Shown here in pieces: positions 869 to 40,579 of a stretch of 64,000 bases of DNA. Source of the stretch: Pedobacter mendelii (GTDB taxonomy: Bacteria > Bacteroidota > Bacteroidia > Sphingobacteriales > Sphingobacteriaceae); contig NZ_BMDJ01000002.1 in assembly GCF_014635725.1 (NCBI RefSeq), forward strand, positions 186,001-250,000, in the 5' to 3' direction. Every line of letters starts with the position of its first letter. The first letter of the stretch is position 1. Position numbers and translations under genes: made by a program. The notes beneath the pieces were generated by a model. It saw nothing but the letters and a program-made list of their open reading frames with translations. It made no database searches and was not told where the DNA came from.

Positions 869-2839
869 TTATTTTGTCATTTCCGGAAACCACACGCTCA
901 TCTCTCCTTTTCCTCGGTTTGCCCATGCATAATATGGAATAACAGTAAGTTGGACTCTATTTTCAGCACCATTAGCTTTGAGGCTGATAACAGGCGCTTT
1001 AAGTTTGATAACTCCATTCAAAATTTCAGAATGAAAATCTCCTGTAAACTGAGCTGTTGATGGAATCCTTATGGATGATATTGCTGCCACATTGTCAACA
1101 GATTCGCCACAAAAAATTATCGGCCCACGTTGTAAGCTTATCTTTCCTTGGTTCTCTACAAGATTTTTTTTAGCAATAATTTTTTTTAATTGCATAGGCA
1201 GTACAAATTTTACGGCATCTCCCTTTTTCCATTGGCGATTAATTACTACGTAACCCTTTTTTACATGATAATTGACATTTATGCCATTAACCATTACTTT
1301 AAAACCCGTCTTACCACTTTCTTCATATTTATATAAATCAGACGGTATTGCTTCATTTCTTACCCAGCCGGGTAAGCGCAAGTTAAGGCTAAACTTTAGC
1401 GTACGTTCCGGATCGACAGCTATATTTAAGTTTCCATCCCAAGGATAGTTATTATTTTGAGTGATCTTAATTTTTTCTTTGTTGATTTCTAATTCTGTAA
1501 TGCTCGCTACAAATAGGTTTATATAAATCTGATCATTCATCTGCGCATAAATATACCCGGGCAGAGAAGGCAAAAATCTTGAGATGTTGGTAGGGCAGCA
1601 TGAACATTCAAACCAACCCGATCTTGTTGCTTCTGCATCTTTATGGCTAACACCATCAATAATTTGCATAGCATTAGTGTAGAAAAACGATTTCCCATCT
1701 AAACCAACACCAGAAAGTAAAGCATTATATAATATTTTCTCTAACACATCAATATATTTAGAATCGCCATGGAGTAAAAACATACGCTGGTTCCAGTACA
1801 CATTTCCAACTGCTGCGCAAGTTTCATTGTAAGCTGTTGCATTTGGTAATTCATAATCATTCCCAAAGCGCTCTCCATCAGGCACAGCACCTATTCCACC
1901 TTGTACGTACATTTTTTTACTGCACATATTATCCCAAATTTTGTCGATGGCTTTTATATATCCTGGATCTCCTGTTAATGCTGCCACATCTGCCATTCCT
2001 GAATACAAATACATTGCTCTAACCGCATGTCCTACAGCTTCATTTTGTTCAATAACAGTTTCGTTATCCTGCCAATATTTTCCATTTTTCCAAGGATTAT
2101 TATCCTGAATATCATATTTCTTTTTTCCACGCTGGTCAATAAAGAATTTCGCCAGTTTTAAATAACTTTCATTAGCTGTTATTCTATATAATCTTACCAA
2201 TGCCATCTCAACAATTTCATGCCCAGGTGCTACACTTCGCTTATTTTCTCCAAATGTTGCTACCAACAGATTAGCATTTTTAATGGCAATATTTAGAAAA
2301 TTCTTTTTCCCGGTAGATTGATAATGTGCTACAGCAGCCTCTATCAAATGGCCAGCATTATATAATTCGTGGCTCATGTTCGCTTCATTAATCCATCTTT
2401 CTTTCCCTGACCATGAAGGTGGATTTTCAGGATTAATGGTTCGGGCAGTATAAAGATAACCATCTGGCTCCTGAGCATTGGCAATGACAACAATTAAAGA
2501 ATCTATGTAATTATCTAACTTAGCATCTGGATAAACGGCCAATGAATATGATGCCCCTTCAATGGTTTTATAAATATCGGTATCATCAAAAACATAAGTT
2601 GTGCAAAACTTACCTTTTTTAGCAGCAGCCATTTCAAAATTTTTAATTCTCCCAGTATTTTCGCAACGGGCAAAGGAAGTAGGAATGGTTACATTTTTAT
2701 TGGTCTCAATTCGGGGAAGCCAAAATTTATCTGCCAGTTTTACTTTATTAAATTGTATAGGATTTATTTTATAATCCTGAAGATTTTGAGCGTATGTAAT
2801 TTTACCGATCAGCAGGAGTAATAAAATAGCGTATTTCAT
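869..2839 (-). CDS. GH127 family (DUF1680) beta-L-arabinofuranosidase-like
   Basis: A 656-residue protein with a cleavable signal peptide (about residues 1-17), followed by the all-helical GH127 barrel and C-terminal beta domains. Family members cleave terminal beta-L-arabinofuranosyl residues using a zinc-bound cysteine nucleophile. The zinc site is recognisable: E339 and C341 in YNETC, then C414 and C415 in CSCCPTN, matching the Glu/Cys3 site known for Bifidobacterium HypBA1. It is 33 bp after the rhamnose mutarotase gene and is the last glycosidase of the PUL. In an arabinogalactan setting it would trim arabinose side chains in the periplasm. Other GH127 specificities (for example 3-C-carboxy-5-deoxy-L-xylose release) are possible, so the exact sugar is uncertain. 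Confidence 0.9.
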   Translation of the reverse strand: MKYAILLLLLIGKITYAQNLQDYKINPIQFNKVKLADKFWLPRIETNKNVTIPTSFARCENTGRIKNFEMAAAKKGKFCTTYVFDDTDIYKTIEGASYSLAVYPDAKLDNYIDSLIVVIANAQEPDGYLYTARTINPENPPSWSGKERWINEANMSHELYNAGHLIEAAVAHYQSTGKKNFLNIAIKNANLLVATFGENKRSVAPGHEIVEMALVRLYRITANESYLKLAKFFIDQRGKKKYDIQDNNPWKNGKYWQDNETVIEQNEAVGHAVRAMYLYSGMADVAALTGDPGYIKAIDKIWDNMCSKKMYVQGGIGAVPDGERFGNDYELPNATAYNETCAAVGNVYWNQRMFLLHGDSKYIDVLEKILYNALLSGVGLDGKSFFYTNAMQIIDGVSHKDAEATRSGWFECSCCPTNISRFLPSLPGYIYAQMNDQIYINLFVASITELEINKEKIKITQNNNYPWDGNLNIAVDPERTLKFSLNLRLPGWVRNEAIPSDLYKYEESGKTGFKVMVNGINVNYHVKKGYVVINRQWKKGDAVKFVLPMQLKKIIAKKNLVENQGKISLQRGPIIFCGESVDNVAAISSIRIPSTAQFTGDFHSEILNGVIKLKAPVISLKANGAENRVQLTVIPYYAWANRGKGEMSVWFPEMTK

Positions 2840-2872
2840 ATTCTAAAATATTAAAATAATACAAACTGCAAG

Positions 2873-3187
2873 TTAAGGTAAATAAAATACTTCCTTTAGT
2901 GGAATCGAAATTGGTGAATTATCCGAATTGCTTTCCATAATATCGCCCATAAATGCCCACCACTTTTGCATAATGGGTTGAGCCGGTAAATTATCCATAA
3001 GTTTAGGGTTTGCCATCTTTAAAACAGCAAATAAATCGTTGGTTGTTTCATCATAAAAGATTGAATAGTCCATTATTCCTGTATCGCTTAGTAATTCAAC
3101 TAATTCTGGCCAGATTTTATCATGCCTTTTTATGTATTCCTTTTCGTAACCTGAAAACAATTTCATTTTAAATGCTATCCTTACCAT
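2873..3187 (-). CDS. rhaM: L-rhamnose mutarotase
   Basis: A 104-residue cytoplasmic protein of the RhaM/DUF718 family, which interconverts alpha- and beta-L-rhamnopyranose. The start is MVRIAFKMKL. Family features seen are the early basic stretch, the HDKIWPEL segment, the DYSIFYDE strand (residues ~41-48) and the QKWWAFMGDIM helix. Length is normal for the family. It sits in the glycosidase operon, 11 bp after the GH16 gene and 33 bp before GH127. It is the only rhamnose-metabolism gene in the window, so its place here suggests that the PUL substrate releases L-rhamnose. No kinase, isomerase or aldolase for rhamnose is present. Confidence 0.92.
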   Translation of the reverse strand: MVRIAFKMKLFSGYEKEYIKRHDKIWPELVELLSDTGIMDYSIFYDETTNDLFAVLKMANPKLMDNLPAQPIMQKWWAFMGDIMESNSDNSPISIPLKEVFYLP

Positions 3188-3198
3188 GCTTATTTAAA

Positions 3199-4047
3199 TT
3201 ATTTTTGATAAACCCTAACGTAGTCTACTTCCATCCGGTTCGGAAATTTAGTATCCTTTAAATCGCCACCATTTAAACCACCCATCGCTAAATCTAAAAG
3301 TATGTAATGTTTTTGCATAAAAGGATTGATACCCGTACCATCATCATTTTTCAATTGTTTCAAAGTCGTTTTATTTAGAAGTAAACCATCAACATATAAA
3401 CTTATGGCTTCGCTATCCCAATCCATTCTCCAAATATGGAACTTTGCAGCCCATTTCTTACCCCCAAGTTCTTCTGTTGATTTCGTATTGCTAAACCACT
3501 TTGGTTTTTTACTGGTGCCAAGCGAAGCGATATTAGCCAGTAATTTTCCACGATAATATTCCATAATATCAATTTCACCATTTGCGGGCCAATTGCCTTT
3601 TTCGCCAAGTGTCCAGAAAGCGGGCCAAAGTCCATCCGAAATATCAATACGACCACGCATTTCAAACCTCCCATATTGAAAACTTCGCAAATCTTTGGTT
3701 ATTAAACAAGCAGATGTATATTCTATGTTATTCGGTTTTTTACGCCAGTTGTTGCTACCTTCTTCAAACAATGGATTAGGTTTTTGCTCTTTTCGGGCTT
3801 CAATAATAAGGAAACCATTTTTACAGAAAGCATTTTCAGGCTGATACCATTGCAACTCTTCATTTCGAACAAAACCTTTTTCATAAGTCCAGTTTGAAGC
3901 ATCAGGAAACCCATCTTTTTTAAATTCATCAGACCAAACCAGTTTATAACCTTCTTTCGAATATTTTTTTTCGAATTGCCGGGCGTTTAATGAATTTGCA
4001 ATTAGTAAAGTAAAAAAAATAAATAGAAGAAATATATTACTTTTCAT
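3199..4047 (-). CDS. GH16 family endo-glycosidase
   Basis: A 282-residue secreted enzyme with an N-terminal hydrophobic signal (residues ~1-22). The GH16 catalytic signature is intact in the NGEIDIMEYY segment: E158 nucleophile, D160, E163 acid/base. The upstream WSDEF motif (residues 38-42) and the C-terminal MEVDYVRVYQ strand are also typical. GH16 enzymes of this layout include laminarinases and, in arabinogalactan loci of Bacteroides, endo-beta-1,3-galactanases. Given the neighbouring GH35 and exo-galactanase-like GH43, endo-galactanase is the better guess, but beta-1,3-glucanase cannot be excluded. It lies 10 bp after GH35 and 11 bp before rhaM, in one operon. Confidence 0.92.
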   Translation of the reverse strand: MKSNIFLLFIFFTLLIANSLNARQFEKKYSKEGYKLVWSDEFKKDGFPDASNWTYEKGFVRNEELQWYQPENAFCKNGFLIIEARKEQKPNPLFEEGSNNWRKKPNNIEYTSACLITKDLRSFQYGRFEMRGRIDISDGLWPAFWTLGEKGNWPANGEIDIMEYYRGKLLANIASLGTSKKPKWFSNTKSTEELGGKKWAAKFHIWRMDWDSEAISLYVDGLLLNKTTLKQLKNDDGTGINPFMQKHYILLDLAMGGLNGGDLKDTKFPNRMEVDYVRVYQK

Positions 4048-4057
4048 TTGGAATCGA

Positions 4058-5887
4058 TTAATTCGATAACTTATTTAAAATTGGAGTGGCAATTGCTTCT
4101 AAAATATCTTGCTGAGGTTTTAATAATTCTAAAACAGAAATTTCGTTCTTGCCTACTTTTAACCATTCTTTAGGAAGGTAAAGTGTTTGTTGCGGACCAA
4201 TGCCCCAATATTTACCTAAATTGCGCCCGTTAACCCAAACAACACCTTTACCCCAATTTGTCATGTTTAAATAGGTATCGCCAACTTTTGAAATATTAAA
4301 GGTGCCACTTTGAACAACCGGACCATCTACTGTTTTCTGTAAAGGTGAAACCTTTGAGGTAACGGCAGAAATATCATTAAATGGAAAACTAAACATTTCC
4401 CAGTTTTTTAATTCTTCACCCCGAAATAAAACCTTTTCTGTTATTCCTTTTTTGTTTTCCAGCAGATATTTACCAAAGTTAATTCTACCCATATTCTCTA
4501 CAAAAATATCAAGCTGAACTTCTCCTTCGGGTAATTGTAATTCCAGGCTATCTAAAAGTGTTCTTCTATCTAGAACGCCAACTCTTTTTTGATTAATAAA
4601 CACCAAAGCGTAATCTCTTAACTGCTTAACCTGAAGCAAACCTTTCCTTCCTCCTGCTATTTTAGTTCGGTACAACACATATCCATAATCTTGTTTTAAA
4701 TCTTCAAAAGTTAATGGGGTTTCATTTTTAACCGCAGTTGGTAAAGCATTAAATAAATTGATTTTATTAGTTAGCTTAAATGGTTTTACCGCAATAGCTG
4801 GTTTATCCGCTGGAATTGGTGGCAAGCTTTTACCTTTTGGAAGGTATTTCCCAATTACTTCCCTAAATTGTCTAAATTTTTCAGTTGAGTTTCCAGCTTC
4901 ATTTAATGGCGCATCGTAATCGTAACTGCTTATTTGAGGTTCATAAGGCGAAGTATCTTTATAATTTGCACCATTCATAAATGCTCTCGTTGTGCCACCG
5001 TGGAACATATACATATTGATAGAAATACCCGCAGCTAGAACAGAATCTAATTTACCAGTATATTTTTCTGCCGGAACCGTATGATGTGGTGTTCCCCACC
5101 AATCGAACCAAGCCGGATACCATTCTGCGATAAAATAAGGGCCTTTTCCATCGTGATATTTATTAATCATGCTTTTAACCCTTTCAGGATTATCCTGACC
5201 ATTTATTGCGGGTAATAAGCCAGATAAATAGCCACCTTTAATATCAGCTTCAGGGTCGCAAGTGTATAATAACCCATCAAAACCCGCGGCAATGAACATT
5301 TTTCGGTTAATATCTAAATATTCTTTATCAGCTGCATAAGAACCATACTCATTTTCTACCTGAACCATAAGTACATTACCGCCGTGGTTTACTTGAAGTG
5401 GTGCCAACTGCTTACCAACTTCATTAATGTATTTTTTGTATTCTTCAAGGTATTGCGATTCTTTACTGCGAACCACCAAACCTTTTTCTGTTTGTAACCA
5501 ATATGGGTAGCCACCAAATTCCCACTCGGCGCACACATAAGGGCTTGGTCTTAAAATCACCCATAGCCCCTCTTCTTTAGCAATTTTCACGAATTCTGCA
5601 ATGTTGTTATTTCCAGAAAAATCGAATTTGCCCTTTTGAGGCTCGTGCAAATTCCAAAAAACATAAGTACCAATGGTATTTAAACCCATGGCTTTAGCCA
5701 TTTTCATACGGTCTCGCCAGGCTTCTTTTGGTACACGTGGATAATGAATTTCTCCGGAGATAATTTGAAATGGCTTTCCATCTAGTAGAAAGTTGTTTTT
5801 ACCAAGTTCGAAAGTATGCTTAATTTGCTGACTAAAACCATTTAATGCAAAGCAAAAGCAAATTATGAGTATTAGATTTTTTTTCAT
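4058..5887 (-). CDS. GH35 family beta-galactosidase
   Basis: A 609-residue secreted enzyme with a signal peptide at residues 1-20. The GH35 TIM barrel covers about residues 30-350. It opens with FLLDGKPFQIISGEIHYPR, carries the acid/base E180 in VQVENEYGS and the nucleophile E255 in IAEWYPAWFDWWG. The remaining residues form the C-terminal beta-sandwich domains, with WVNGRNLGKYW near 560. It removes terminal beta-galactose in the periplasm. Length matches Bacteroidota GH35 proteins. It starts 104 bp after the GH43 gene and is closely followed by GH16. In the proposed arabinogalactan pathway it would act on beta-1,6- or beta-1,3-linked galactose. Confidence 0.95.
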   Translation of the reverse strand: MKKNLILIICFCFALNGFSQQIKHTFELGKNNFLLDGKPFQIISGEIHYPRVPKEAWRDRMKMAKAMGLNTIGTYVFWNLHEPQKGKFDFSGNNNIAEFVKIAKEEGLWVILRPSPYVCAEWEFGGYPYWLQTEKGLVVRSKESQYLEEYKKYINEVGKQLAPLQVNHGGNVLMVQVENEYGSYAADKEYLDINRKMFIAAGFDGLLYTCDPEADIKGGYLSGLLPAINGQDNPERVKSMINKYHDGKGPYFIAEWYPAWFDWWGTPHHTVPAEKYTGKLDSVLAAGISINMYMFHGGTTRAFMNGANYKDTSPYEPQISSYDYDAPLNEAGNSTEKFRQFREVIGKYLPKGKSLPPIPADKPAIAVKPFKLTNKINLFNALPTAVKNETPLTFEDLKQDYGYVLYRTKIAGGRKGLLQVKQLRDYALVFINQKRVGVLDRRTLLDSLELQLPEGEVQLDIFVENMGRINFGKYLLENKKGITEKVLFRGEELKNWEMFSFPFNDISAVTSKVSPLQKTVDGPVVQSGTFNISKVGDTYLNMTNWGKGVVWVNGRNLGKYWGIGPQQTLYLPKEWLKVGKNEISVLELLKPQQDILEAIATPILNKLSN

Positions 5888-5991
5888 TTTTAATTTTGGG
5901 TAGATGATTAAAGGCTTTTTTTCGACAAAAGAATCTACTAATGCATATTTATTACGCAGATAAACTTTGTCCCTTTTTAATTTTTATTTTC

Positions 5992-7107
5992 TTATTTAAA
6001 GAAATTCAGATTCCATTTATCTGACCACTCGATTTTTAATTTATTATCTACAAATTGAATTGGAAGCCATAAATAACGACCATCAATTGCATTTTTAGGT
6101 TCCCATTTATCGGCCATAAAAATAAATGCATTCTTTTTTCCTGGGGCCGGAAGTACGTAAGTACTTTGGCCGCCGAAGGTTTTATCGGCACCAGAACCAA
6201 CACATGGATTACCCATATATTCCCATGGACCAAAAATAGATTTTGCTTTAAACCACCTTGCTGGGTTTGGTGCCCAACCTGTACATCCAGAACCAATCAT
6301 ATAATAAATTCCATCTTTTTTAAATAAAGCTGGTGCTTCGGTTTGCTGCCCAACGTAAATCCTGATGAACTTTCCTGTGTGGCCTAAGTAATCTGGTGTT
6401 AATTCTGCAAGGTGTAATGTGAAATTTTCTTCCGAAGAAAATATATGATAAGCTTTACCATCATCGTCAACAAAAATCGTCATGTCTCTGGCCATTTGTC
6501 CACCAGGTAAATCGCGACAGAAGAAGCCGTCACTTTTATTTGCAGGTCTTTCGCAGTTTACTTTTTCATTTTCAGGTGTTCCGGAAGCATAAAAAGGCAA
6601 TATACCTGGATTTGGACGATAACTTTTAATAAATGTATAAGGCCCGGTTGCTTTATCGGCGGTGGCTACACCTGTACGGGCTGCTGCATAACCTTTACCC
6701 AAAAGTTCAAGATGGAACCACATCACAAATTTTTTGGTTTTTTTATTGTAAACTACTTTCGGACGTTCTAAAATGCAGCCCTTTGCAATATCACTTTTTA
6801 AATCTTCAGAAACTGAAAGTGCAATCCCTTCATCTTTCCAGTTGTATAAATCTTTTGATGAATAACAATGCACACCTAATTGTGCTGTATTTCCCTTTTC
6901 GCCTTCTATTTTATGCTCCCCAAACCAATAATAAACGCCTTTACTATAAACAATACCACCTCCATGAGCGTTAATGTGAATACCATTATTATCTTTCCAG
7001 ATTTTACCCGGTGTAAAATCCTGATAGGATTCTTGCGCAAAAACCTGATTACTTGCTAAGCAACTAATGAAAATAAGACCAACGAAAAGAGATAAACGAT
7101 TGTACAT
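5992..7107 (-). CDS. GH43 family protein, exo-beta-1,3-galactanase-like (subfamily 24/34 type)
   Basis: A five-bladed propeller glycosidase. I start it at the Met at 7107 because this gives a normal signal peptide (MYNRLSLFVGLIFISC, ending near VFAQ); the upstream Met at 7152 would add 15 residues of poor signal character. Key segments are INAHGGGIVY with YYWFGEHK, the LERPKVVYN segment holding the likely catalytic acid, and TEAPALFKKDGIYYMIGSGCTGW. These resemble exo-beta-1,3-galactanase-type GH43 proteins more than arabinanases. The canonical aspartate base position is not obvious, as in known exo-galactanases. It is the first glycosidase after the SusCD genes, separated by a hairpin. Subfamily assignment is from memory of motifs. 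Confidence 0.82.
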   Translation of the reverse strand: MYNRLSLFVGLIFISCLASNQVFAQESYQDFTPGKIWKDNNGIHINAHGGGIVYSKGVYYWFGEHKIEGEKGNTAQLGVHCYSSKDLYNWKDEGIALSVSEDLKSDIAKGCILERPKVVYNKKTKKFVMWFHLELLGKGYAAARTGVATADKATGPYTFIKSYRPNPGILPFYASGTPENEKVNCERPANKSDGFFCRDLPGGQMARDMTIFVDDDGKAYHIFSSEENFTLHLAELTPDYLGHTGKFIRIYVGQQTEAPALFKKDGIYYMIGSGCTGWAPNPARWFKAKSIFGPWEYMGNPCVGSGADKTFGGQSTYVLPAPGKKNAFIFMADKWEPKNAIDGRYLWLPIQFVDNKLKIEWSDKWNLNFFK

Positions 7108-7170
7108 AACACTTAAATATATATTTTTTGAATTAAGACTGTAAGATAGCAATTGTGTTTAAATTAATAA

Positions 7171-7194
7171 TCGGGCCATCCGAAGACGACCCGA
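7171..7194 (-). terminator. Hairpin between SusD and the downstream glycosidase operon
   Basis: The arms TCGGG (7171-7175) and CCCGA (7190-7194) can pair. Read on the minus strand, the hairpin is followed by a T/A-rich tract. It lies between the SusD stop (7214) and the GH43 start (7107). Partial termination or RNA processing here would favour SusC/SusD over the enzymes. Short stem, so only moderately supported. Confidence 0.4.
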
Positions 7195-7213
7195 AAAACT
7201 AACCAATATATTA

Positions 7214-8956
7214 TTAATAACCGGGGTTTTGTAAATAAGAAGGCAGTTTTAAAATCTCACTTTGTGGAATAGGCATTAAATAATTTGCTGGCCGGAAATT
7301 ATGTCTACGAATTGAATTACCTATTGCATAATTATAAGTAGTTGGATCGGTAGATGTTGAAGTAGTTCCAGTTTTAGGTGAAATCAACATTATTTTATTG
7401 AATTGATTTTCAGTTACCTCTGCAATTTTCCAACGACGTTCATCAAAGAACCTCATGTCTTCGAAAGCCATTTCAGTACGGCGTTCTTTTTGAATAACTA
7501 AACGAAGTTCATCTTGAGTAATGCCCGATTTAATTCCATAACGAGCGTCAGTTCCTGGCAAAATACCAGCACGATCTCTTAGTTTAAGAAGATAAGTCGT
7601 TGCTTCTGTAATTTGTCCCATTTCATTCAACGCTTCTGCATAGTTTAATATAATTTCACCATATCTGATCAACGGATAACCTCTATCTACGTTAGCTGAG
7701 CCTCCGAATGCAACATTTACATCACACATTTTTCTTCCGTAATAACCTGTATTTGTACCAATTCCAGTTCCATCACCTGGAGCATTCGAATAAGTAAAAA
7801 CTGGAGTTTGTGCGCCTGCATTATTTGCATACAAAGAGCCATTATAGATAATCGTATATGCAAACCTTGGATCACGATTGATGTATGGATTAGCTGGATT
7901 ATATCCGGAAGTTGGATCGGTAATCTGTTTCCCGTTTCTCATGTCAAATGCATCTACAATATTTTGCGTAGGCTGTGTATTAAAACCTCCAGAGCGAGAT
8001 GGCGGCCCAAAATGCCCTTCGAAATCTTTGTTGGGTGCTTGGGTTAATGTAAATATCAATTCTTCATTTTTTCTTGCAAGAAAAGATTTATAGAACCCAA
8101 AACCTGGAGCAGTTGTATTATCAATTACCAAATTATATTTGTTCATATCAATTACCGCTTTTGCTGCGTTGGCTGCAGCTGTCCAACGTGTAGCATCGAA
8201 AGTTGGATAAGCAATTATAGAAGCGATTGCTCCGGTTTTTACAATACCACCACCATTAAATAACGGACTTGCAGCGGTTAAAAGAACCCTCGATTTTAAT
8301 GCGAGGCACATTCCTTTGGTAATTCGACCATAATCTTGATCCAATTGATCTAAAGGTAATATTGCTGCAGTTGCATCACATTCGCTAACGATGTAGTCAA
8401 CACATTCCTTCCAAGTATTTCTAGGAATATCAATAATATCGTCTTTATCATAAACTTTATCCCCTATTAAAGCTATGCCACCAAATGTTCTAATTAAATA
8501 ATGATAATACCATGCCCTTAGAAATCTGGCTTCAGCGGCAACTAGCCTTTGTGTTGAGGGATGAAGTGGTGTTGTTGATAGTTTAGATAACAATAAATTT
8601 ACTGCACGGATTTCCAGATAAGGCTGAACATACATATCGGTACTGGTTCCCTTAACAATATTTAACGGACTAACGTTACCCGAATAGATGATCACAGCTT
8701 GTTGGCCCGCGCCACTATACCGATACTCTCCATCATCAGTCGCTTCATCTAAATTTCCATGACTATCCCAACGACCTTTGTTAAAAGAAAATCCGCGGCC
8801 TGCATAAATTCCATTTAAGAACCCTAATGTTCTCACACTGTCGCTGAATACTACAGTTGCGTCTTGTCCTGCATTTGCTTGATCAAGATAACTCGTTGCT
8901 TTTTTACAGGAGAATAACCCTATTAAAGCGAGGATGATTAAAAAATATTTTTTCAT
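7214..8956 (-). CDS. SusD/RagB-family nutrient-binding outer-membrane lipoprotein (second pair)
   Basis: A 580-residue SusD-like protein. The N-terminus MKKYFLIILALIGLFSCKK carries a lipobox with C17 as the lipidated cysteine, so it should be anchored to the outer membrane and cap the SusC barrel. The central TPR-like part includes AEARFLRAWYYHYLIRTFGG (residues ~141-160). The C-terminal region has the family's RRTEMAFEDMRFFDERRW motif and ends PQSEILKLPSYLQNPGY. It binds the glycan for import. The gene starts 10 bp after its SusC partner. It is similar in layout to the other SusD at 12099-13802, which suggests a tandem pair duplication. Confidence 0.96.
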   Translation of the reverse strand: MKKYFLIILALIGLFSCKKATSYLDQANAGQDATVVFSDSVRTLGFLNGIYAGRGFSFNKGRWDSHGNLDEATDDGEYRYSGAGQQAVIIYSGNVSPLNIVKGTSTDMYVQPYLEIRAVNLLLSKLSTTPLHPSTQRLVAAEARFLRAWYYHYLIRTFGGIALIGDKVYDKDDIIDIPRNTWKECVDYIVSECDATAAILPLDQLDQDYGRITKGMCLALKSRVLLTAASPLFNGGGIVKTGAIASIIAYPTFDATRWTAAANAAKAVIDMNKYNLVIDNTTAPGFGFYKSFLARKNEELIFTLTQAPNKDFEGHFGPPSRSGGFNTQPTQNIVDAFDMRNGKQITDPTSGYNPANPYINRDPRFAYTIIYNGSLYANNAGAQTPVFTYSNAPGDGTGIGTNTGYYGRKMCDVNVAFGGSANVDRGYPLIRYGEIILNYAEALNEMGQITEATTYLLKLRDRAGILPGTDARYGIKSGITQDELRLVIQKERRTEMAFEDMRFFDERRWKIAEVTENQFNKIMLISPKTGTTSTSTDPTTYNYAIGNSIRRHNFRPANYLMPIPQSEILKLPSYLQNPGY

Positions 8957-8966
8957 TGTCTATTGC

Positions 8967-12065: not shown

Positions 12066-12098
12066 AAATAATTTCAGTTCTAATTTATTGACGAATAC

Positions 12099-13802: not shown

Positions 13803-13813
13803 TTATTTAACGA

Positions 13814-16800: not shown

Positions 16801-16822
16801 TAAATATTTTTTTTTCACTCAT
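13814..16822 (-). CDS. SusC/RagA-family TonB-dependent transporter with divergent N-terminal domain (first pair)
   Basis: A 1002-residue SusC-type receptor. The signal peptide is residues ~1-26 (ending PGFANQ). The region ~38-115 occupies the place of the carboxypeptidase-regulatory-like domain but is divergent (LIKFLVLDENDIPVKGVSLN) and lacks the usual DEVVVIGYGT hallmark. The plug follows at ~140-240, with ITVLKDAVSTAMLGLRSSGG, and then the barrel, ending VVNGGLSVKF. It is the first gene of the SusCDCD block, with 589 bp of non-coding DNA upstream that must hold its promoter. It would import a different fragment from the second SusC, or work as an alternative receptor. Confidence 0.95.
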   Translation of the reverse strand: MSEKKIFKNFRLFLALLCLSYPGFANQAPQPSKQDTSQVKLIKFLVLDENDIPVKGVSLNNLRISSSVQTDSLGMAQLTGTINDEIQVSLNETFLRKYLVGANQSQIIRVNGKNLMVMQQKAVVLTNDILISPNMTTGSTQSVYNSDLVKFPVTSIKNALPGRLTGLYTNQTTGRPSVDEANVLLRGQNPIVLVDGIPRDLTRIDLEEIESITVLKDAVSTAMLGLRSSGGVIAITTKKGIVGTQQITLTAQNGLQSSLKTPKTLDAYNYALLYNEARVNSGDLPVYTPTDIEAFRTGSDPIGHPNVNWQDEILKENTKFMRYDLTFRGGGSVARYYVGVQYQKLGGQLVESDINAYSTNSSISNYTIRSNVDINLTPKTILGLHLFGKISNSNHPGNFGTDNIFNSILNTPNNAYPIFNENGSYGGTTQFQNNIYAQTVSSGYSLNYRRDIITDLTLRRSLDEVTPGLWAQALVSFYSGVSENTNRSKSFAVYKQTGTGVAATYQMFGTNGTQGNSTGTDFQNRQSYLEGAIGYKRSFGLNNFDAQVRVTSDNVNSGSELGLNYYGGSGRVSYNFDERYTAEFVVGLNKTNRYPSSTPMGFFPAAGLSWNITKEKFMPKLSWLNDLKLFASYGRTGNDASGYFVFQQFYVGSPSSYFFGTSVASNAALRQDVLANPNVTWEKGDKFNLGIKTNLFNNKLFIQAEYFNNKYSDLLTSANLSTIVGTSIRNLNVGVNRYNGFELQMNWQQSFGKFSYFLSGNVSTLQSKVVFQNEVFRQFDYQSRTGLPVGTPFGYIADGLFQSQTEINASAKIAGYSPVPGDIKYKDLNSDGIIDQFDQAKLGTDNPLVYYGATVGFSYGGLDLSVLLQGVANRNLLLTGNSEWEFQNGGFGQAYEHNLNRWTPATAATATYPRVTVGNNFNNNIVSSFWMHSGNYLRLKNVELGYTIASKFTEKLKVSSIRVFVNGTNLLTTSAFDRVDPETYGGVYPIQRVVNGGLSVKF

Positions 16823-17411: not shown

Positions 17412-18665
17412 TTATCTTAAATCAGCACTATGGTCATTAGGGAAATCTTCGCCAGCCCAGATTTTTTGTGAACTCCACTTTGTTGGAGGATTTGCCCAAA
17501 AAGCATCTGTAGATGGTAGGCCTAAAGGCAAGAAAATGTTAGTACATATATAAGGGCTACCTTGGTTATTGTAAAAGTCTCCTAAATCGGGTTGAGCGCC
17601 ATATAAACCGATAGTTAACCAACCATTTTTATAAGTTGTTGTATTTTCTAAAGTCTTTTTTATTACAGCAGTTAATGCACAGCGAACCTGCTCCGGACTT
17701 AGTTGTTTTGGCAAAGCTTTTCTAAAAGCCATATCTGCCAGATGGTGAAATGCGCCGCCACGATATACAATTGAACGACCAGTTGCGGGATATGTTCCAT
17801 CCGTATTTATTAATCTTTCTTGAATGATTGCATAACGTTCGTTGCGTTTTTTAATCTTTTCGAACATGTTGTTGTAATCCTTAGTTTTTGTACCAATGAT
17901 GCTTGATATCGTTGCCAGATATGGATGAATAACATAGCTATTGTAGTAATCAAAAGCATAAGTGCTGCCATCTTTATACATACCGTCGCCCACATACCAT
18001 TGCTCCATTTGTTGTAAGGCATAGTCAACACGCATGGAATCCCAGGGGTAACCGAATTTGGCTAAAAATGCTTCATTCATCGCGGAGAACAATAACCAGT
18101 TCGAAAACACGGGCTTAAATCTTCTTGTGGTTACTATAGATTTCATCATTAATTCCTGATGTTTTTTATCAAGATTTTCCCATAACCATGGCGCACGTAC
18201 AAAAGCCAATGCCACATAAGAAGCATCTACCAACTGCTGACCGCCAATATCATAGTTCATAAAATCTTTTGCGTTCGAATCCAAAGAATTTTTTAAACCT
18301 TGAATTACCCACTGTCTGTATTTATTTCTTAAGGCAACTTCAGCAGCATCTCCACCTTCTAACTGTAACCAGGGTGCAATTCCGCTTAAAACCCGACCTA
18401 AAACCTCAACATACTGAACTTTAATTCTATGCTCTTTGTTATCAATATGGATTGAGGTAACCTTTGGCATATTTATGCGTAGACTATCTTTTGCGAGATT
18501 ATACAAAACCGGTTTCACCATTTTATCCATCTGTTGCAGCCAGAATTGTCTATCGCTTAAAACTGCTGTCTTTTTATTGGTCTTCTTTTGCTGAGCAAAT
18601 ACAGCTATTGAAAAGCATGCAAGCATCAATACGGTAAGCGATAATTTTTTTATAGGGATATTCAT
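17412..18665 (-). CDS. DUF2264 family protein (GH154-type beta-glucuronidase candidate)
   Basis: A 417-residue secreted protein (signal peptide ~1-25, ending VFAQQ) of the DUF2264 family, an alpha/alpha-barrel fold. Typical segments are VLGRVLSGIAPWLQLEG (~90-106), the NWLLFSAMNEAFL region (~190-205) and VGDGMYKDGSTYAFDYYNSYVIHP (~230-253). From memory, a DUF2264 protein of the Bacteroides thetaiotaomicron arabinogalactan locus is a beta-glucuronidase and founded CAZy GH154. By that link it would remove glucuronic acid from side chains. It is the last gene of the BNR-GH43-GH105-DUF2264 operon, 16 bp after GH105. The family call is firm; the activity is inferred. Confidence 0.85.
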   Translation of the reverse strand: MNIPIKKLSLTVLMLACFSIAVFAQQKKTNKKTAVLSDRQFWLQQMDKMVKPVLYNLAKDSLRINMPKVTSIHIDNKEHRIKVQYVEVLGRVLSGIAPWLQLEGGDAAEVALRNKYRQWVIQGLKNSLDSNAKDFMNYDIGGQQLVDASYVALAFVRAPWLWENLDKKHQELMMKSIVTTRRFKPVFSNWLLFSAMNEAFLAKFGYPWDSMRVDYALQQMEQWYVGDGMYKDGSTYAFDYYNSYVIHPYLATISSIIGTKTKDYNNMFEKIKKRNERYAIIQERLINTDGTYPATGRSIVYRGGAFHHLADMAFRKALPKQLSPEQVRCALTAVIKKTLENTTTYKNGWLTIGLYGAQPDLGDFYNNQGSPYICTNIFLPLGLPSTDAFWANPPTKWSSQKIWAGEDFPNDHSADLR

Positions 18666-18681
18666 GAGTATTTTAGTTCGG

Positions 18682-19806
18682 TTATTTTTTTAAGTACCTG
18701 TACATTTCGCAGTTCGCCAAAAGGAAAGCACCAACCCCAAAGTTTGCAGTCGAGTTTGCATCTACAATTTGCCCTGGAATTGCTTTTTCGCCAATTGGTT
18801 GCACATAGCCAACTTTACCGCTTTCTTGCAATGCAGTTTTGGTTAAATAGTTCCAACCTTTTAATGCCGAAGGCAAATAAGTTTTTTTATTCAGGTAGCC
18901 ATTGTTAATTCCCCATAATAGGCCATAGGTAAAAAAGGCCGTTCCACTGGTTTCCCTACCAGGTGCATGTTCAGCATCAAGCATGCTACGTGTCCAGTAG
19001 CCTTCCTCCTGCTGACTTTTTAAAATAGCCTCAGCCATACCTTTGTATTTAGATAAATATTCCTGCCTGTGTTTATCATTTTTCGGCAAATCTTTAAGCA
19101 CCTTGGCTAAGCCAGCAAACACCCATCCATCGCCCCTGGCCCAGAAATCTTTTTTACCATTTGAACTTTTATGCTGCGGATAAACATACTTCGCATCACG
19201 ATAATAAAGTTTAGCCTCCTCATCATACATAATGCTATTGGCATACGTAAAATACTCGTAAAGTTTATCTAAATATTTAGTGTTACCAGTTGTTTTATAC
19301 AGTTTTGTCATTACTGGCATTACCATATACAAACCGTCTGCCCACCACCAGTAATCGCTTTGAGCAGTACTCATCTCATATTCCATTACCTCTTTTGCTC
19401 TGGCAATTTTATAATCTTCGGGCATTAAGTGGTATAAATCGATATATGTTTGAAAACATATTTGCCAATCACCAAATAAAACATGCTCGTCTGTTTCGCC
19501 ATATTTATATTTCCATTGGCTTTTATCTGTAGATTTTGCACCCATCCATTTATTGTGAATAGCCCAATCTTCAGAATATTTGCGATAAGTTTCATTTTTT
19601 GTAAGTGTAACTACTTCCATATTTCCAGTGTGATACGCCGCATTATCCCAAAAGGAACGAACTTCGGGTTTATTACTGGCTTGCCAATAGGTATTCGCTT
19701 TATCAATAATGCTAAGGACTTCTTTTTTTGATGGTAGTTTCTGCGCATTTAAATTGATTGCGATAAAAAGTAGCATCCAAATACTGATATAAGTTTTATT
19801 CTTCAT
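18682..19806 (-). CDS. GH105 family unsaturated glucuronyl/galacturonyl hydrolase
   Basis: A 374-residue secreted GH105 enzyme (signal peptide ~1-21). The (alpha/alpha)6 barrel carries the likely catalytic aspartate D157 in DYWWWADGLYM, and FWARGDGWVFAGLAKVL is the other family signature. GH105 enzymes hydrolyse the 4,5-unsaturated uronic acid that polysaccharide lyases leave at a non-reducing end. A lyase is therefore expected in the same pathway; the BNR-repeat protein two genes upstream is the best candidate. The start overlaps the stop of the double-GH43 gene by one base (TAATG), indicating translational coupling. Confidence 0.93.
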   Translation of the reverse strand: MKNKTYISIWMLLFIAINLNAQKLPSKKEVLSIIDKANTYWQASNKPEVRSFWDNAAYHTGNMEVVTLTKNETYRKYSEDWAIHNKWMGAKSTDKSQWKYKYGETDEHVLFGDWQICFQTYIDLYHLMPEDYKIARAKEVMEYEMSTAQSDYWWWADGLYMVMPVMTKLYKTTGNTKYLDKLYEYFTYANSIMYDEEAKLYYRDAKYVYPQHKSSNGKKDFWARGDGWVFAGLAKVLKDLPKNDKHRQEYLSKYKGMAEAILKSQQEEGYWTRSMLDAEHAPGRETSGTAFFTYGLLWGINNGYLNKKTYLPSALKGWNYLTKTALQESGKVGYVQPIGEKAIPGQIVDANSTANFGVGAFLLANCEMYRYLKK

Positions 19807-21980
19807 TATTTAACAGGTTTAATTCCGGTTAGTGTTGGTGTTACTTTTTTAATGCTTCCATCTTTATTGAATTCCAGTTTATCGATACAAACTTCGCGAT
19901 TATAACCGGCAGCACTACCCATTGTAATGCCTTCCGGTAGGGTAAAGCGATGGTAAACTATATACCATTCATCTTTACCAGGAATCTGAATTACACTATT
20001 ATGTCCGGTTCCATAAATACCATTCTGAGTATCTTTAGCTAAAATCAGGTTATTTTCAGGAATAGATATTTTTCCTGTTGGTGAATCAGAATAACCATAC
20101 CGAACACGATAGTTTTCACTACGAGTATCATCTTCAGACCATAAGAAATAGTATTTGCCATTGCGATAAAATACCTCTGTACCTTCACGGAAATCTTTAT
20201 TTATGGTTATCACTTTTATAGAATTGGTATCAATGGAAACCATATCCTGATTTAAAGCCGCAACAGCCATATAGCTATTGCCCCAATACAAATAGCTTTT
20301 CCCTGTTTTTGGATCGGTAAAAACATCTGGATCGATTTCTTGACCGCCTTTAATACCTAAAGGTTTTTTATCGATTAGTGCTTTACCGCTATCTTTAAAC
20401 GGCCCAGCAGGATTATCAGAAAATGCTACACCGATTTTCTGCGCAGACGTGAAGTAATAGAAATATTTATACTTTCCATTAATGATCTTTTCAGCAATTG
20501 TAGGTGCCCAGGCATTTCTTTTTCCCCAACTTACATCTTTTACCAAATCTAATACTACACCTTCATCTTTCCAGTTTACTAAATCTGTAGATGAAAAAGT
20601 TTTAAAATAGGTTCCGCTCCATCCAGTAAATCCGTCGCTTGTTGGATATAGGTAATATTTTTTTGTTTTATTGGCATATAAAATCTCCGGATCTGCATAA
20701 TAACCTTTTAAAACCGGATTATTATTTATTCCTGAATTAACTTCATAGGTTTTAGCAGGTTTTCCAGCAATGCTGACTGAGATTTTTTTAGGTCCTTTTG
20801 AAAAATCTGATTTTCCATTTGGCATTATACTAACCCCAGAAAAACTTGGAAATTCAGGGTCGAAATCTTTTAGGTCTGTTTCATAATCTACAGGAAGAAA
20901 AAGCTTTTTAGCTGCACTATCCAAAACGATATTATTCTTTTTGATGTACTTAGATTGCGGCGATTTTAAAACCGATTCAACAGTATACCACTTTGACACT
21001 AAACTTTTCATTTCTAATTGGTTAATAGGCAAAACAGTTCCATGCCGAGGGTGGAAATCCATAGAAACAGCCTGATCAACTACCTGAAAATTTTCTAAGT
21101 CTTTACTACGTGTAAACTGATATTTACCTTTCATGTAAACATCATACATAAGAATATAATCACTACTATTATTTAGTTTAAAAACACCTGCACCTTCAAC
21201 GGCTTCTGTAGTTTGTTGTAAATATTTATCCTGTAATACATAACCCTCTGTAAGTTTATCCGAAACGGCTTTTTTAATGCCATTGCCATTACCTTCCGTT
21301 TTGAAAAAGAGGTTGTATTTCCCGTTATGGTAAATGATATCGCCATCAATACAAGAACCATTTGTAGGGCTAAAAAATAGTTGTTCTGGTTCGGTTTCCA
21401 AATCGGTAAAATCTGCATTTGCATAGGCGTAGTAAATTTTGTCGGGGTCTTTTCCATGTTTCATAGACCAGTAAACCATATATTTTTGCTTTACATTATC
21501 GTAAATGGTTTGAGGTGCCCAAACACGCAGTAAGTTTTCATTACCCGGAAATCTCTTTTGGATATTAATTATAGATGAAGACCAGTTGATTAAGTCTGTC
21601 GATTTTAGCAAAACCATTGCCCGGTTAGAATCCCATCCTTTGGCCGAAACCATATCGGTTACAACCATATAAAATGTTTTACCATCCGCACCGCGTAATA
21701 TGTGAGGATCGCGAACACCTCCAGTAGAACTTATTTTTTCTGATGATATAACAGGCTCATCGTTATTTAATGCATTAAAAGAATATCCATTTTTACTTAT
21801 GGCATAATGTATTGCTTCTTCTTTTTTATCATTTCCGGTGAAGTAAACAAAAAGATAGCCATCATTTTTATTTTTTCCAGCCACACTATCTTGAGCAAGT
21901 AGTTGATTTGAAGCCAGGTTTAACCAAAACAAGAAACAACAAGTTGTTTTAAGCAGGTTTTGTATTCCAAAATTTTTCAT
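19806..21980 (-). CDS. Double-domain GH43 protein (two GH43 propellers in one chain)
   Basis: A 724-residue secreted protein (signal ~1-30) with two GH43-like propellers. The N-terminal one (~40-340) has GVRDPHILRGADGKTFYMV, WAPQTIYD and CIDGDIIYHNGKYNLFFK. The C-terminal one (~385-715) has YYADPEILYANKTKKYYLYP, WAPTIAEK, EIDPDVFTDPKTGKSYLYWG and FREGTEVFYRNGKYYFLWSE, which supply the expected Asp base, Asp modulator and Glu acid. The N-terminal propeller has the aspartates, but its acid position (in AVEGAGVF) is less certain. Likely roles are arabinofuranosidase or galactosidase-type side-chain removal. It is one base after the BNR gene's stop and one base overlapped with GH105. Confidence 0.9.
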   Translation of the reverse strand: MKNFGIQNLLKTTCCFLFWLNLASNQLLAQDSVAGKNKNDGYLFVYFTGNDKKEEAIHYAISKNGYSFNALNNDEPVISSEKISSTGGVRDPHILRGADGKTFYMVVTDMVSAKGWDSNRAMVLLKSTDLINWSSSIINIQKRFPGNENLLRVWAPQTIYDNVKQKYMVYWSMKHGKDPDKIYYAYANADFTDLETEPEQLFFSPTNGSCIDGDIIYHNGKYNLFFKTEGNGNGIKKAVSDKLTEGYVLQDKYLQQTTEAVEGAGVFKLNNSSDYILMYDVYMKGKYQFTRSKDLENFQVVDQAVSMDFHPRHGTVLPINQLEMKSLVSKWYTVESVLKSPQSKYIKKNNIVLDSAAKKLFLPVDYETDLKDFDPEFPSFSGVSIMPNGKSDFSKGPKKISVSIAGKPAKTYEVNSGINNNPVLKGYYADPEILYANKTKKYYLYPTSDGFTGWSGTYFKTFSSTDLVNWKDEGVVLDLVKDVSWGKRNAWAPTIAEKIINGKYKYFYYFTSAQKIGVAFSDNPAGPFKDSGKALIDKKPLGIKGGQEIDPDVFTDPKTGKSYLYWGNSYMAVAALNQDMVSIDTNSIKVITINKDFREGTEVFYRNGKYYFLWSEDDTRSENYRVRYGYSDSPTGKISIPENNLILAKDTQNGIYGTGHNSVIQIPGKDEWYIVYHRFTLPEGITMGSAAGYNREVCIDKLEFNKDGSIKKVTPTLTGIKPVK

Positions 21981-21981
21981 T

Positions 21982-23391
21982 CTAATTTTTTAATTTCGGT
22001 TTCCATTGTAATACTTTAACCGCAGTTGGTTTAGATTCGGCTTTTCCTTCTCCATCTACCTGTATTACATTTTGCAGGTAAAGGTTCAAAATTGTTCTAT
22101 CCTTCCAAAGTTCGGTATCGTAACTTGGCTCCCAATCGCCAGCACTTTCCGTTGTTAAATCTTCAATTTGCCATTTATTTGTTTTTATGTCTTGATTTAT
22201 GGCAATAGAAGCTTTATTGCCTCTTTCGGCATCTCTAAACAAAATTCCGGCTGCATACCTTTTATTATTTGGCCAAACAATAATTTGCGGTCGGGAAATC
22301 GGAATTTTCTTAGTTCCGCCTCCACTTAAACTAAATGCTGTTTTCCTGAAAGATAAGTTATTTACTTTCCAGCTTTGCCCATCATTAAAAACAATATGAT
22401 ATTGCGGAACTGTATCAGGAACATCTCTCCAATAACCTGCAATAAATACATTTCCACATGCATCAGCATACATTGATGTTTGATTTATTAATTCACTTTT
22501 TTGAGGAATTTTTAAAGCGTATTCTGCATTTGATTCGATAATTGGTAAACGATATTTTTCTCCTGTAGATTTTTGCCAGGTTAAACCGCCATCTAAAGAT
22601 TTTGCATAACAAAGATCATGGTTACTGGCTACATCAGGGCTTTCTCTCCAAACCCATGATAAATGAAGCGCACCTGATTTATCAATTGCAACCTGCCAGT
22701 AAGCATTTCGTTTTCCTTCACCATCAATCATTCCATCCTGAATGCGTTGCCACGATTTTTTTTTAACAGAATAACGGTTAATCATTAAATTACCATTTCC
22801 CGAACCACCATCACGATAAAAGAAAAGTAAATCTCCAGTTGGAAGTTTATAAAATTCAGGGTAACTAACTTTATTTTCTTTTTCAGCAACCATTGATAAT
22901 TTTTCACCTAACTCAAGTGAACCAACAGAAATGCCTTTAGCGTAATTTAAACTGTTATTATGTTGACCCCAGGCTACATGCAAAAAACCAGAACCATCAA
23001 TAATTATACTTATCGATTTATGTGCATCGGTTGCATCACCCGTATATTGTGTTCTTTTGGACTGCCAAACCTTTGCTCCGGTTGCTCGCTTTGCTAAAAC
23101 AACAAATTGTTCGGCATCATAATAAGCAGCATATTGGTAATTTTTAAATGTTACCAATGAATTTTTACGAAAAACAACAGCATTAACGGAATTTTTTGCC
23201 CAGCCATTTTCGGCTATTGTGGTAATTTCTTTTTCCTGTGCATAGGTAAAATTAACCAATAGCACTGATAGACATAAAAATAAAATATATCTGGTAGTAG
23301 AATTAGTTTTGAAATTCGGATTAATCAATTTTTTATATTTGGTTAACCGAAGTACTGAAATTGTACAGACTTGCTTAGGGGGGAAAATCAT
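21982..23391 (-). CDS. BNR_4 repeat protein, possible rhamnose-glucuronate lyase
   Basis: A 469-residue protein of the BNR_4 propeller family. Met at 23391 precedes a signal-like stretch only at residues ~33-51 (YILFLCLSVLLVNFTYAQ); a TTG at 23328 would give a signal peptide of normal length and may be the true start. Propeller features include the repeated D-x-G elements (IDGSGFLHVAWGQHNN, IDKSGALHLSWVWRES) and YADACGNVFIAGYWRD. BNR_4-like seven-bladed propellers include the polysaccharide lyase families PL24/PL25 and, as I recall, PL42 L-rhamnose-alpha-1,4-glucuronate lyases. With GH105 and rhaM in the same locus, a lyase that releases rhamnose is attractive. The family is fairly clear; the activity is not proven. 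Confidence 0.78.
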   Translation of the reverse strand: MIFPPKQVCTISVLRLTKYKKLINPNFKTNSTTRYILFLCLSVLLVNFTYAQEKEITTIAENGWAKNSVNAVVFRKNSLVTFKNYQYAAYYDAEQFVVLAKRATGAKVWQSKRTQYTGDATDAHKSISIIIDGSGFLHVAWGQHNNSLNYAKGISVGSLELGEKLSMVAEKENKVSYPEFYKLPTGDLLFFYRDGGSGNGNLMINRYSVKKKSWQRIQDGMIDGEGKRNAYWQVAIDKSGALHLSWVWRESPDVASNHDLCYAKSLDGGLTWQKSTGEKYRLPIIESNAEYALKIPQKSELINQTSMYADACGNVFIAGYWRDVPDTVPQYHIVFNDGQSWKVNNLSFRKTAFSLSGGGTKKIPISRPQIIVWPNNKRYAAGILFRDAERGNKASIAINQDIKTNKWQIEDLTTESAGDWEPSYDTELWKDRTILNLYLQNVIQVDGEGKAESKPTAVKVLQWKPKLKN

Positions 23392-23547
23392 ATTTGAAGG
23401 GGGACGATTTGATATTGATATACGATTATACTAACTAACCACATAATTCAGCGGACAATTAGATTTTTTTTTAAGAAATTGTTCAATTTATTTTCTAAAC
23501 AACATACAAAATGAAAACTGGAAAATCATTTTGTTATTTAATTTTTA

Positions 23548-24015
23548 TTACACCTTCAGTAAAGCCTTACTCAAAGTATCTTTAAATGGCCCTCTTGGAT
23601 TATCAGATACTGCAACCCCAATTGATTTACCACTAACTGTTGCATGTTAAACGGCCACAGACCAATAAAATTTACCATCTCGCTCTATTACTTGTGAAGC
23701 CCAGGCATCATCTTTATCCCAAGCAAAATCTTTTACATTTAGCAGTGATTTGTGCACTTTCCATGTTATCATATCTGCTGACGAGTAACAAAGCCACTCG
23801 TGCATTTCATAACTATTTTTTGTCTTCGGCGCTACATCACGCCCAGTATATAGATAAACTGAATCGCCATAAACGAATGCAGCAGGATCAGCTGTGTATT
23901 TATCTGCTATTATAGGGTTACCTTTTGAAACAATAATATTCTCCTGCGCTTTTGCCTTACTGTAAATATTGAAAAGAAGTATAACTAAGCTATATGCTTT
24001 TAATTGTTTTACCAT
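23548..24015 (-). pseudogene. Broken GH43 gene (in-frame stop and missing C-terminal half)
   Basis: Start MVKQLKAYSLVILL at 24015 with a signal peptide, then a GH43 N-terminal half: YTADPAAFVYGDSVYLYTGRD, WASQVIERDGKFYWSVAV. A TAA at 23647-23649 interrupts, but the same frame continues with HATVSGKSIGVAVSDNPRGP and then FKD to another stop at 23548-23550. That continuation is the normal GH43 sequence (compare DNPAGPFKD in the intact protein at 19806-21980). After about 35 more residues homology ends, so the later blades and the catalytic acid are absent. It lies between the regulator and the BNR gene. I infer a once functional PUL enzyme lost by a nonsense mutation plus deletion. Confidence 0.9.
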
Positions 24016-28104: not shown

Positions 28105-28279
28105 AAAATAATAAGAGAGGAAGATATTTGGTATAAACGAATATACAACTTTTATTGAAGTGGAACCGATTAAAACCAATAAACGTATTATTAACGTTAA
28201 TAAAAATAATTATTTTGTTTTTAAGTTCGAAATTGATGTGCATAATTTTTAGTGCTTTTGTTATTTTAATAAAAAATAA

Positions 28280-40509: not shown

Positions 40510-40579
40510 AAGAAATTTAAGCATAACACGGTTGGGCGAATTTAAAATATTCGCTCCAGCAGTGTCTTTATGTTTATAA

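Follow-up and report, generated by a model that had tools for sequence, protein, structure and literature searches.

A candidate arabinogalactan protein utilization locus in Pedobacter mendelii with a predicted PL42 rhamnose-glucuronate lyase and a predicted glucuronate dehydratase

We analyzed a 64,000-nucleotide stretch of the 4.5-Mb genome of Pedobacter mendelii (positions 186001-250000 of contig 2; hereafter the window), which contains a candidate polysaccharide utilization locus (PUL) for plant arabinogalactan proteins (AGPs). The locus spans window positions 869-28179, and all of its genes are co-directional on the minus strand (Table 1). Domains were assigned by Pfam in the 15 open reading frames (ORFs) of the locus, with NCBIfam models and their cut-offs as a second source. 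Starting from a hybrid two-component system (HTCS) gene, the order is GH43 relic, BNR_4, two-domain GH43, GH105, DUF2264, SusC, SusD, SusC, SusD, GH43, GH35, GH16, rhaM and GH127. Adjacent genes overlap or are at most 104 bp apart, except for 589 bp between the second SusC gene and DUF2264 and for the relic-bearing stretch between BNR_4 and HTCS. An earlier note on this DNA had listed the enzymes as members of one locus, and Pfam confirmed each of them in its place on the minus strand.

Table 1. Features of the locus, in window coordinates and in gene order from the HTCS
Feature	Position	Strand	Basis
HTCS, presumed sensor and activator of the locus	24061..28179	-	Pfam Reg_prop, Y_Y_Y, HisKA, HATPase_c, Response_reg, HTH_18 (AraC-type HTH)
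Secreted GH43 gene relic	23548..24015	-	In-frame stop, truncated; Pfam GH43 on first 122 amino acids
PL42 (former GH145) rhamnose-alpha-1,4-glucuronate lyase (predicted); posterior hydrolase His replaced by Phe82	21982..23391	-	Pfam BNR_4, PDB matches, residue mapping
Two-domain GH43, likely arabinofuranosidase activities	19806..21980	-	Pfam; PDB match of C-terminal half
GH105 unsaturated beta-glucuronyl hydrolase (predicted)	18682..19806	-	Pfam GH88; 5noa, E 5.3e-172
DUF2264 (former GH154) beta-glucuronate dehydratase (predicted)	17412..18665	-	Pfam; PDB matches; active-site residues
SusC-type TonB-dependent transporter 2	13814..16822	-	Pfam Plug
SusD-type glycan-binding protein 2	12099..13802	-	Pfam SusD_RagB; N-terminus lipoprotein-like by eye
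SusC-type TonB-dependent transporter 1	8967..12065	-	Pfam Plug, TonB_dep_Rec
SusD-type glycan-binding protein 1	7214..8956	-	Pfam SusD_RagB; N-terminus lipoprotein-like by eye
GH43, exo-beta-1,3-galactanase (GH43_24-like)	5992..7152	-	6eug, E 3.6e-130
GH35 beta-galactosidase	4058..5887	-	Pfam; 6eon, E 4.6e-164
GH16, probably endo-beta-1,3-galactanase of the locus (predicted)	3199..4047	-	Pfam; 6xof, E 6.7e-36; genomic association
L-rhamnose mutarotase, no signal peptide seen	2873..3187	-	Pfam rhaM; TIGR02625, 113.3 bits (cut-off 99.6)
GH127, probably beta-L-arabinofuranosidase	869..2839	-	Pfam; 6ex6, E 6.8e-218

The BNR_4 protein is a member of family GH145, for which CAZy planned the new name PL42 (PMC8377490). 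It matched four structures of the BT3686/BACCELL_00856 group over nearly its full length (residues 56-465), with E values from 1.9e-147 (5muk, the structure of BT3686; PMC8406133) to 2.8e-139, and the fungal rhamnose-glucuronate lyase FoRham1 (7esk) at E 6e-28. BT3686 was described as having two active sites, a posterior hydrolase site with His48 and an anterior lyase site with His90, Tyr143 and Arg333 that cleaves wine AGP (PMC8406133). In the window protein, the posterior His48 expected of a GH145 rhamnosidase is Phe82, and anterior His90, His110, Tyr143 and Arg333 of BT3686 correspond to His124, His144, Tyr177 and Arg367; together with R193, these residues supply the His, His, Tyr and Arg of the lyase site. 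Ten of the 11 mapped anterior residues of FoRham1 are also identical (H85, H105, Y150, R166, S170, Y202, R220, P223, N275 and Q276), with Y26 replaced by Phe74. Across the best 80 named relatives, nine anterior positions are invariant except for one cell, whereas at the posterior position 57 have Phe, 14 Tyr, 6 His and 3 another residue. This scarcity agrees with PMC8406133, in which the posterior His is described as rare in organisms from outside the gut. Judged by its residues, the BNR_4 protein would be a lyase without the hydrolase residue.

The DUF2264 protein points to a second route to the same product. Two members of this family, BcGDH and BT3677, were reported in 2025 to dehydrate terminal beta-glucuronate to a 4,5-unsaturated sugar, a reaction proposed to be family-wide and to feed GH88 or GH105; the same paper argues that no family member has a hydrolase-like active site (PMC12269599). 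All ten alanine mutants of BcGDH were without detectable activity, on a substrate that its authors call poor (PMC12269599). The window protein shares nine of the ten mutated residues (E74, R78, N176, N177, W178, F181, Y229, R285, Y289 and Y354) and has Ser188 in place of N176, Ser being the usual residue at this position among the DUF2264 relatives that we read. NCBIfam gave no name for this protein. The closest solved relative of the adjacent GH105 protein is 5noa, far ahead of the unsaturated 3S-rhamnoglycuronyl hydrolase 4ce7 (E 2e-53); its NCBIfam name fell below the cut-off. Because the PL42 and DUF2264 proteins keep the lyase and dehydratase residues, side chains ending in rhamnose-glucuronate (Rha-GlcA) and in bare glucuronate (GlcA) should converge on one sugar, unsaturated GlcA, which GH105 should then remove. 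By Pfam, the 15 ORFs include no further rhamnosidase or glucuronidase family.

Other enzymes of the locus are of types suited to the backbone and to arabinose. The closest solved relatives of the single-domain GH43 are exo-beta-1,3-galactanases, as for GH43_24: 6eug is followed by 7bys (galactan 1,3-beta-galactosidase) and 5flw (exo-beta-1,3-galactanase), after which E values fall from 1e-32 to 4e-10 (several of the PDB molecule names are generic). NCBIfam gave no name for this GH43, and its name for the GH35 protein was below cut-off. The best matches of GH35 and GH127, 6eon and 6ex6, are what we take to be products of AGP-induced B. thetaiotaomicron genes. The two-domain GH43 has a GH32N-type match at residues 40-136 and GH43 at 420-709; its C-terminal half best matched 3qz4 (E 2e-103), and its N-terminal half resembles an alpha-arabinofuranosidase model, below the NCBIfam cut-off. 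A GH43_19+GH43_34 protein expressed on arabinogalactan in Maribacter (PMC11036162) is a possible parallel. In addition, the GH127 enzyme BT3674 worked with exo-galactanases on larch arabinogalactan (PMC10850190).

Genes for the released sugars were found elsewhere in the genome, outside the locus. RhaT and a bifunctional RhaD-dehydrogenase, both above the NCBIfam cut-off, lie together at G000:C3 with a RhaI-type isomerase, an FGGY kinase and a gene resembling FMN-dependent lactate dehydrogenase. At G000:C1 we detected a short-chain dehydrogenase and KduI, the latter above cut-off.

Conservation of the locus was assessed in relatives. The closest relatives of the BNR_4 protein occur in genomes of the same genus, one match having 85% identity (G079). 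GH43, GH105, DUF2264 and GH43_24, each with at least 70% identity, occurred together with BNR_4 in 25 of the 40 relative places fetched, and an HTCS match of at least 64% identity in 28 of the 40; the grouping is therefore more than chance. PL42 was present in 64 of 198 related genomes searched. For a comparison among named genomes we used the best 80 loci, with no Bacteroides among their titles; 72 of them were at least 20 kb long and centred on PL42. Flanks of 10 kb undercount distal genes. Near PL42 in these 72 loci we found DUF2264 in 55, GH105 in 46 and GH43_24 in 44.

Fusions of PL42 with GH105 were observed in six genomes in all, in both orders and in different Pedobacter genomes. GH105-PL42 single proteins of 789-834 amino acids occur in four (G059, G070, G091 and G095), the reverse-order PL42-GH105 fusion, of 802 amino acids, in G031, and PL42 joined to a distant GH105 (30%) in G012. 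Five fusion ORFs (L155:8858-11320, L158:8735-11236, L115:10043-12448, L275:3152-5605 and L278:3400-5766) have a single N-terminal signal-like sequence. The PL42 part (G059, G070) or the GH105 part (G031) matches from about the expected end of its own signal peptide; no such pattern is visible in G091 and G095, where the limits of the two matches overlap. The search covered all ORFs of L001-L070 and L111-L190 (150 BNR_4 ORFs, many of them the same gene twice) and ten more stretches. No description of PL42-GH105 fusions was found in the open-access literature searched, among the matches listed. Open-frame length by itself was rejected as evidence for fusion, given that G036 holds separate genes, and a joined GH105-DUF2264 frame in G035, in which one module lacks its end and the other its start, was dismissed as an artefact of a fragmented assembly.

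GH88 was present without GH105 in 11 of the 72 loci, and in 10 of these it starts within approximately 70 bp of the PL42 end (for example, L157:11347-12594, with similar ORFs in L141, L148, L164 and L181). The single GH88 member compared, from which the type is taken, was closest to 3wiw (E 2e-108) and then to unsaturated glucuronyl hydrolases. An apparent lack of any unsaturated-glucuronyl hydrolase in several Mucilaginibacter genomes was rejected, since GH88 genes that score poorly with PF07470 adjoin PL42 there; some loci still have neither. Neighborhood, fusions and GH88 substitution are as predicted by a pathway in which lyase and dehydratase precede the hydrolase. A separate observation in several Mucilaginibacter loci (6 of the 72) is a GH2 gene between GH43_24 and GH35 (L150:13693-15564), whose best models are beta-glucuronidases, below cut-off.

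We regard it as highly probable, from gene content and active-site residues, that the locus serves the utilization of plant AGPs with side chains ending in Rha-alpha-1,4-GlcA or bare GlcA. SusC/SusD, HTCS, GH43_24, a Rha-GlcA lyase and GH105 are found in one locus, as expected of a Bacteroidota AGP utilization locus. The two SusC/SusD pairs would import the glycan, and GH127 and the two-domain GH43 may, by family, remove arabinose. The PL42 lyase would free rhamnose by elimination and leave unsaturated GlcA, the DUF2264 dehydratase would convert bare GlcA to the same sugar, and GH105 would remove it from both. GH43_24 and GH35 would take galactose off the backbone and side chains, which GH16 may open. 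Rhamnose would be mutarotated and pass through RhaT, RhaI, the kinase and RhaD, and the unsaturated uronate would pass to KduI and a KduD-like step. That a lyase uncaps the chain and GH105 removes the unsaturated sugar, as the earlier note had it, fits the lyase residues and the closeness of GH105 to 5noa. Its proposed target, AGP or gum-arabic glycans, can be retained as Rha-capped, glucuronylated type II arabinogalactan, in view of PL42, the dehydratase residues, the GH105 relatives, the GH43_24-like enzyme, the catabolic genes and the lack of a clear sulfatase, but is doubtful for gum arabic because the hydrolase His is absent. Its claim that DUF2264 acts on glucuronate agrees with the residues; the mode, however, would be dehydration, not hydrolysis (PMC12269599).

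Several observations weigh against this assignment. No CAZyme (carbohydrate-active enzyme) of the window locus carries a lipoprotein signal, as judged from its N-terminus. Among NCBIfam models, GH127 scored highest against aceric acid hydrolase, a rhamnogalacturonan-II activity, but with 472.8 bits stayed below the cut-off of 950. The top PDB match of the DUF2264 protein, from the same family, is named beta-galactosidase (8oi4, E 1e-94), followed by dehydratase chains 9o4u and 9nwf (E 2e-91 and 1e-90). GH16, rhaM and GH127 occur in just 13, 6 and 4 of the 72 relative loci, with distal genes undercounted by the 10-kb flanks, and 15 of these loci lack both GH105 and GH88 in the 10-kb flanks and add nothing to the case for the pathway; in two of the 15 (L151 and L153), genes for KduI and a short-chain dehydrogenase precede PL42 by 3-5 kb on its strand. 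Among the rhamnose genes, the RhaI-type isomerase (492 bits, cut-off 647) and the kinase (rhamnulokinase model) are below cut-off, and classical RhaA had no match in the genome. The points below on BT3686, sulfation and 6xof count in the same direction.

The best-scoring solved relative of the BNR_4 protein, BT3686, releases rhamnose from gum arabic (PMC8377490), and the nearest NCBIfam model is likewise alpha-L-rhamnosidase BT3686 (621 bits, below the cut-off of 700), as would suit a gum-arabic-type AGP uncapped by a GH145 hydrolase (rhamnosidase) of the kind first described for BT3686. The hydrolase His is, however, Phe82 here and is rare among the named relatives, and the hydrolase assignment was rejected on Phe82. 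In addition, two lyase-only Bacteroides relatives, which lack the posterior His, cleave wine AGP but leave gum arabic uncut (PMC8406133). FoRham1, a lyase that also lacks this His, does cleave gum arabic, which makes this substrate possible even for a lyase (PMC8377490). Overall, a gum arabic locus built on a hydrolase has little probability. Because both Bacteroides enzymes failed on it, gum arabic is not the safest test substrate, though FoRham1 cuts it. A target such as ulvan or another sulfated rhamnose-glucuronate glycan could be suggested by the PL42 fold, which is common to ulvan lyases (PMC8377490), and by GH105 and rhaM, which are also compatible with it. Moreover, the authors of PMC8406133 consider the anterior lyase site probably meant for a sulfated substrate, while exempting some members, and suspect a sulfated target for the lyase-only relatives; this, next to a genome without a clear sulfatase, speaks against an AGP target as well. 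Ulvan loci would be expected to have sulfatases and ulvan-lyase-type polysaccharide lyases. Yet ulvan lyase chains 6jq9, 6byp and 7czh matched the BNR_4 protein at just E 1e-5 to 2e-5, no clear sulfatase was found in the genome (a weaker match apart, the one sulfatase-family protein over cut-off was nearest to phosphoglycerol transferases, whose models it matched below cut-off), and no S1-type sulfatase motif was found in the 72 full relative loci by one regular expression without a positive control. The exo-beta-1,3-galactanase and GH127 would also be without an evident role on ulvan. We rejected ulvan on the lack of a clear sulfatase and on the GH105 type, far nearer 5noa than 4ce7, and consider it very improbable.

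The preferred assignment to AGPs also has to account for GH16, whose best solved match, 6xof, is laminarinase-like; this code occurs in a paper on a GH16 laminarinase (PMC7961093). Since GH16 has no conserved feature for selecting glucose or galactose (PMC7419316), sequence alone cannot make the enzyme a galactanase. Its NCBIfam name was below cut-off. GH16 could then be a laminarinase, with the locus of mixed purpose or the gene a passenger. Laminarin loci combine GH16 with GH3, GH17 or GH30; none of these three families was detected by Pfam in the 15 ORFs. Furthermore, among the matches listed, 27 of the 33 Pedobacter GH16s of at least 65% identity (window gene included) have GH43_24 or BNR_4 no more than 35 kb away, compared with 8 of 28 at 57-64% identity and 0 of 88 at 50% or less. 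This set consists of the matches listed and the second GH16 of the same genome, with second pieces of split genes and weak or second-piece BNR_4 matches omitted; from G198 upward, the genomes were searched for GH43_24 alone. By this genomic association GH16 probably acts on galactan, and a laminarinase is unlikely.

An S-C lipoprotein-like signal was seen by eye at the N-termini of 23 of 30 GH16 matches, whereas a regular expression flagged only 3 of the 30. The window GH16 and three close relatives (L195, L196 and L198) have an ordinary signal peptide, and the window locus therefore has no evident counterpart of the endo-enzyme that Bacteroides carries at its surface. Some sister-clade GH16s, of 57-64% identity, lie in another conserved Pedobacter locus (L228:8128-17681), with a PF05426 (alginate-lyase-family) protein, GH88/105, DUF4886 and, by ORF size only, SusC/SusD; two cases were recognized by Pfam (L228, L230) and five more by equal ORF sizes. 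Its substrate is possibly a uronate-containing galactan. The other GH16 of the genome (L226:8224-9753, G000:C6) is a GDPD-GH16 two-domain protein adjoining a phospholipase C-like gene.

With regard to the remaining genes, the HTCS presumably regulates the locus, as suggested by its domains. The GH43 relic consists of a 122-amino-acid ORF (23647-24015), an in-frame stop and approximately 32 further codons before it is cut off; it is 72-75% identical to apparently intact ORFs of 322-324 amino acids at the same position in the three relatives examined (L112, L133 and L137). The transporter genes (7214-16822) seem to be swapped independently of the enzymes: in G083 the enzymes are 81-95% identical, yet the SusC match is just 29%, and in G042 and G050 identities are 66-69% for BNR_4 and 75-85% for SusC. 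Outside the locus, the window encodes a protein with a CAP12/Pycsar-type TIR domain (31435-32196; PF10137, E 3e-30), a possible anti-phage effector, and an ABC transporter pair in which Pfam recognized ABC_transp_aux and ABC2 membrane domains (37277-40524), presumably resembling the gliding-type GldA/GldFG.

A broader possibility is that environmental Bacteroidota uncap AGPs wholly by elimination, using PL42 for Rha-GlcA and DUF2264 for bare GlcA followed by a single hydrolase, that this last step is swappable between GH105 and GH88 and was joined to the lyase on more than one occasion and in either order, and that the cap is not of the gum-arabic type. We consider this proposition evenly poised. 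If it is true, the fusions would be natural two-step uncapping enzymes for a non-gum-arabic cap. The fusions of relatives could be used as tools to read how AGP side chains end, and together with GH88 substitution they add some interest to an otherwise known type of system. AGPs are widespread plant surface glycans (PMC8406133), and gut Bacteroides provide the best-described examples of their breakdown. The window locus belongs to this known type, lets the choice between lyase and hydrolase be predicted from residues in a form that can be tested, and represents a new setting for the recently recognized glucuronate dehydratase.

Homologs of the families of B. thetaiotaomicron AGP genes BT3674 (GH127), BT3677 (DUF2264) and BT3686 (GH145) are all present in the window locus, and 6ex6, 3qz4, 6eug and 5noa presumably derive from this or companion B. 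thetaiotaomicron AGP loci. BT3686 retains His48 and hydrolyzes gum arabic caps (PMC8377490), whereas the window protein has Phe82. BT3677 is predicted to carry a second domain (PMC12269599), for which the 417-amino-acid Pedobacter protein has no room. PUL5 of Bacteroides plebeius, with BACPLE00335 (GH43_24), BACPLE00337 (GH105) and BACPLE00338 (GH145), likewise unites GH43_24, GH105 and a GH145/PL42 protein without the posterior His; wine AGP raises expression of its susC, and its GH105 cuts the lyase product (PMC8406133). That organism, however, requires a sulfatase from another PUL (PMC8406133), whereas the Pedobacter genome has no clear one, and the window locus has DUF2264, GH16, rhaM and GH127 in addition to the families reported for PUL5. 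FoRham1 of Fusarium oxysporum resembles the window PL42 protein at its anterior site, but it is fungal, distant by E value and active on gum arabic (PMC8377490). Finally, BcGDH of Bacteroides caccae is of the same DUF2264 family and has nearly all of its tested residues in common with the window protein; it feeds GH88 in chondroitin breakdown (PMC12269599), whereas for the Pedobacter enzyme the predicted next step is GH105, in the breakdown of AGP.

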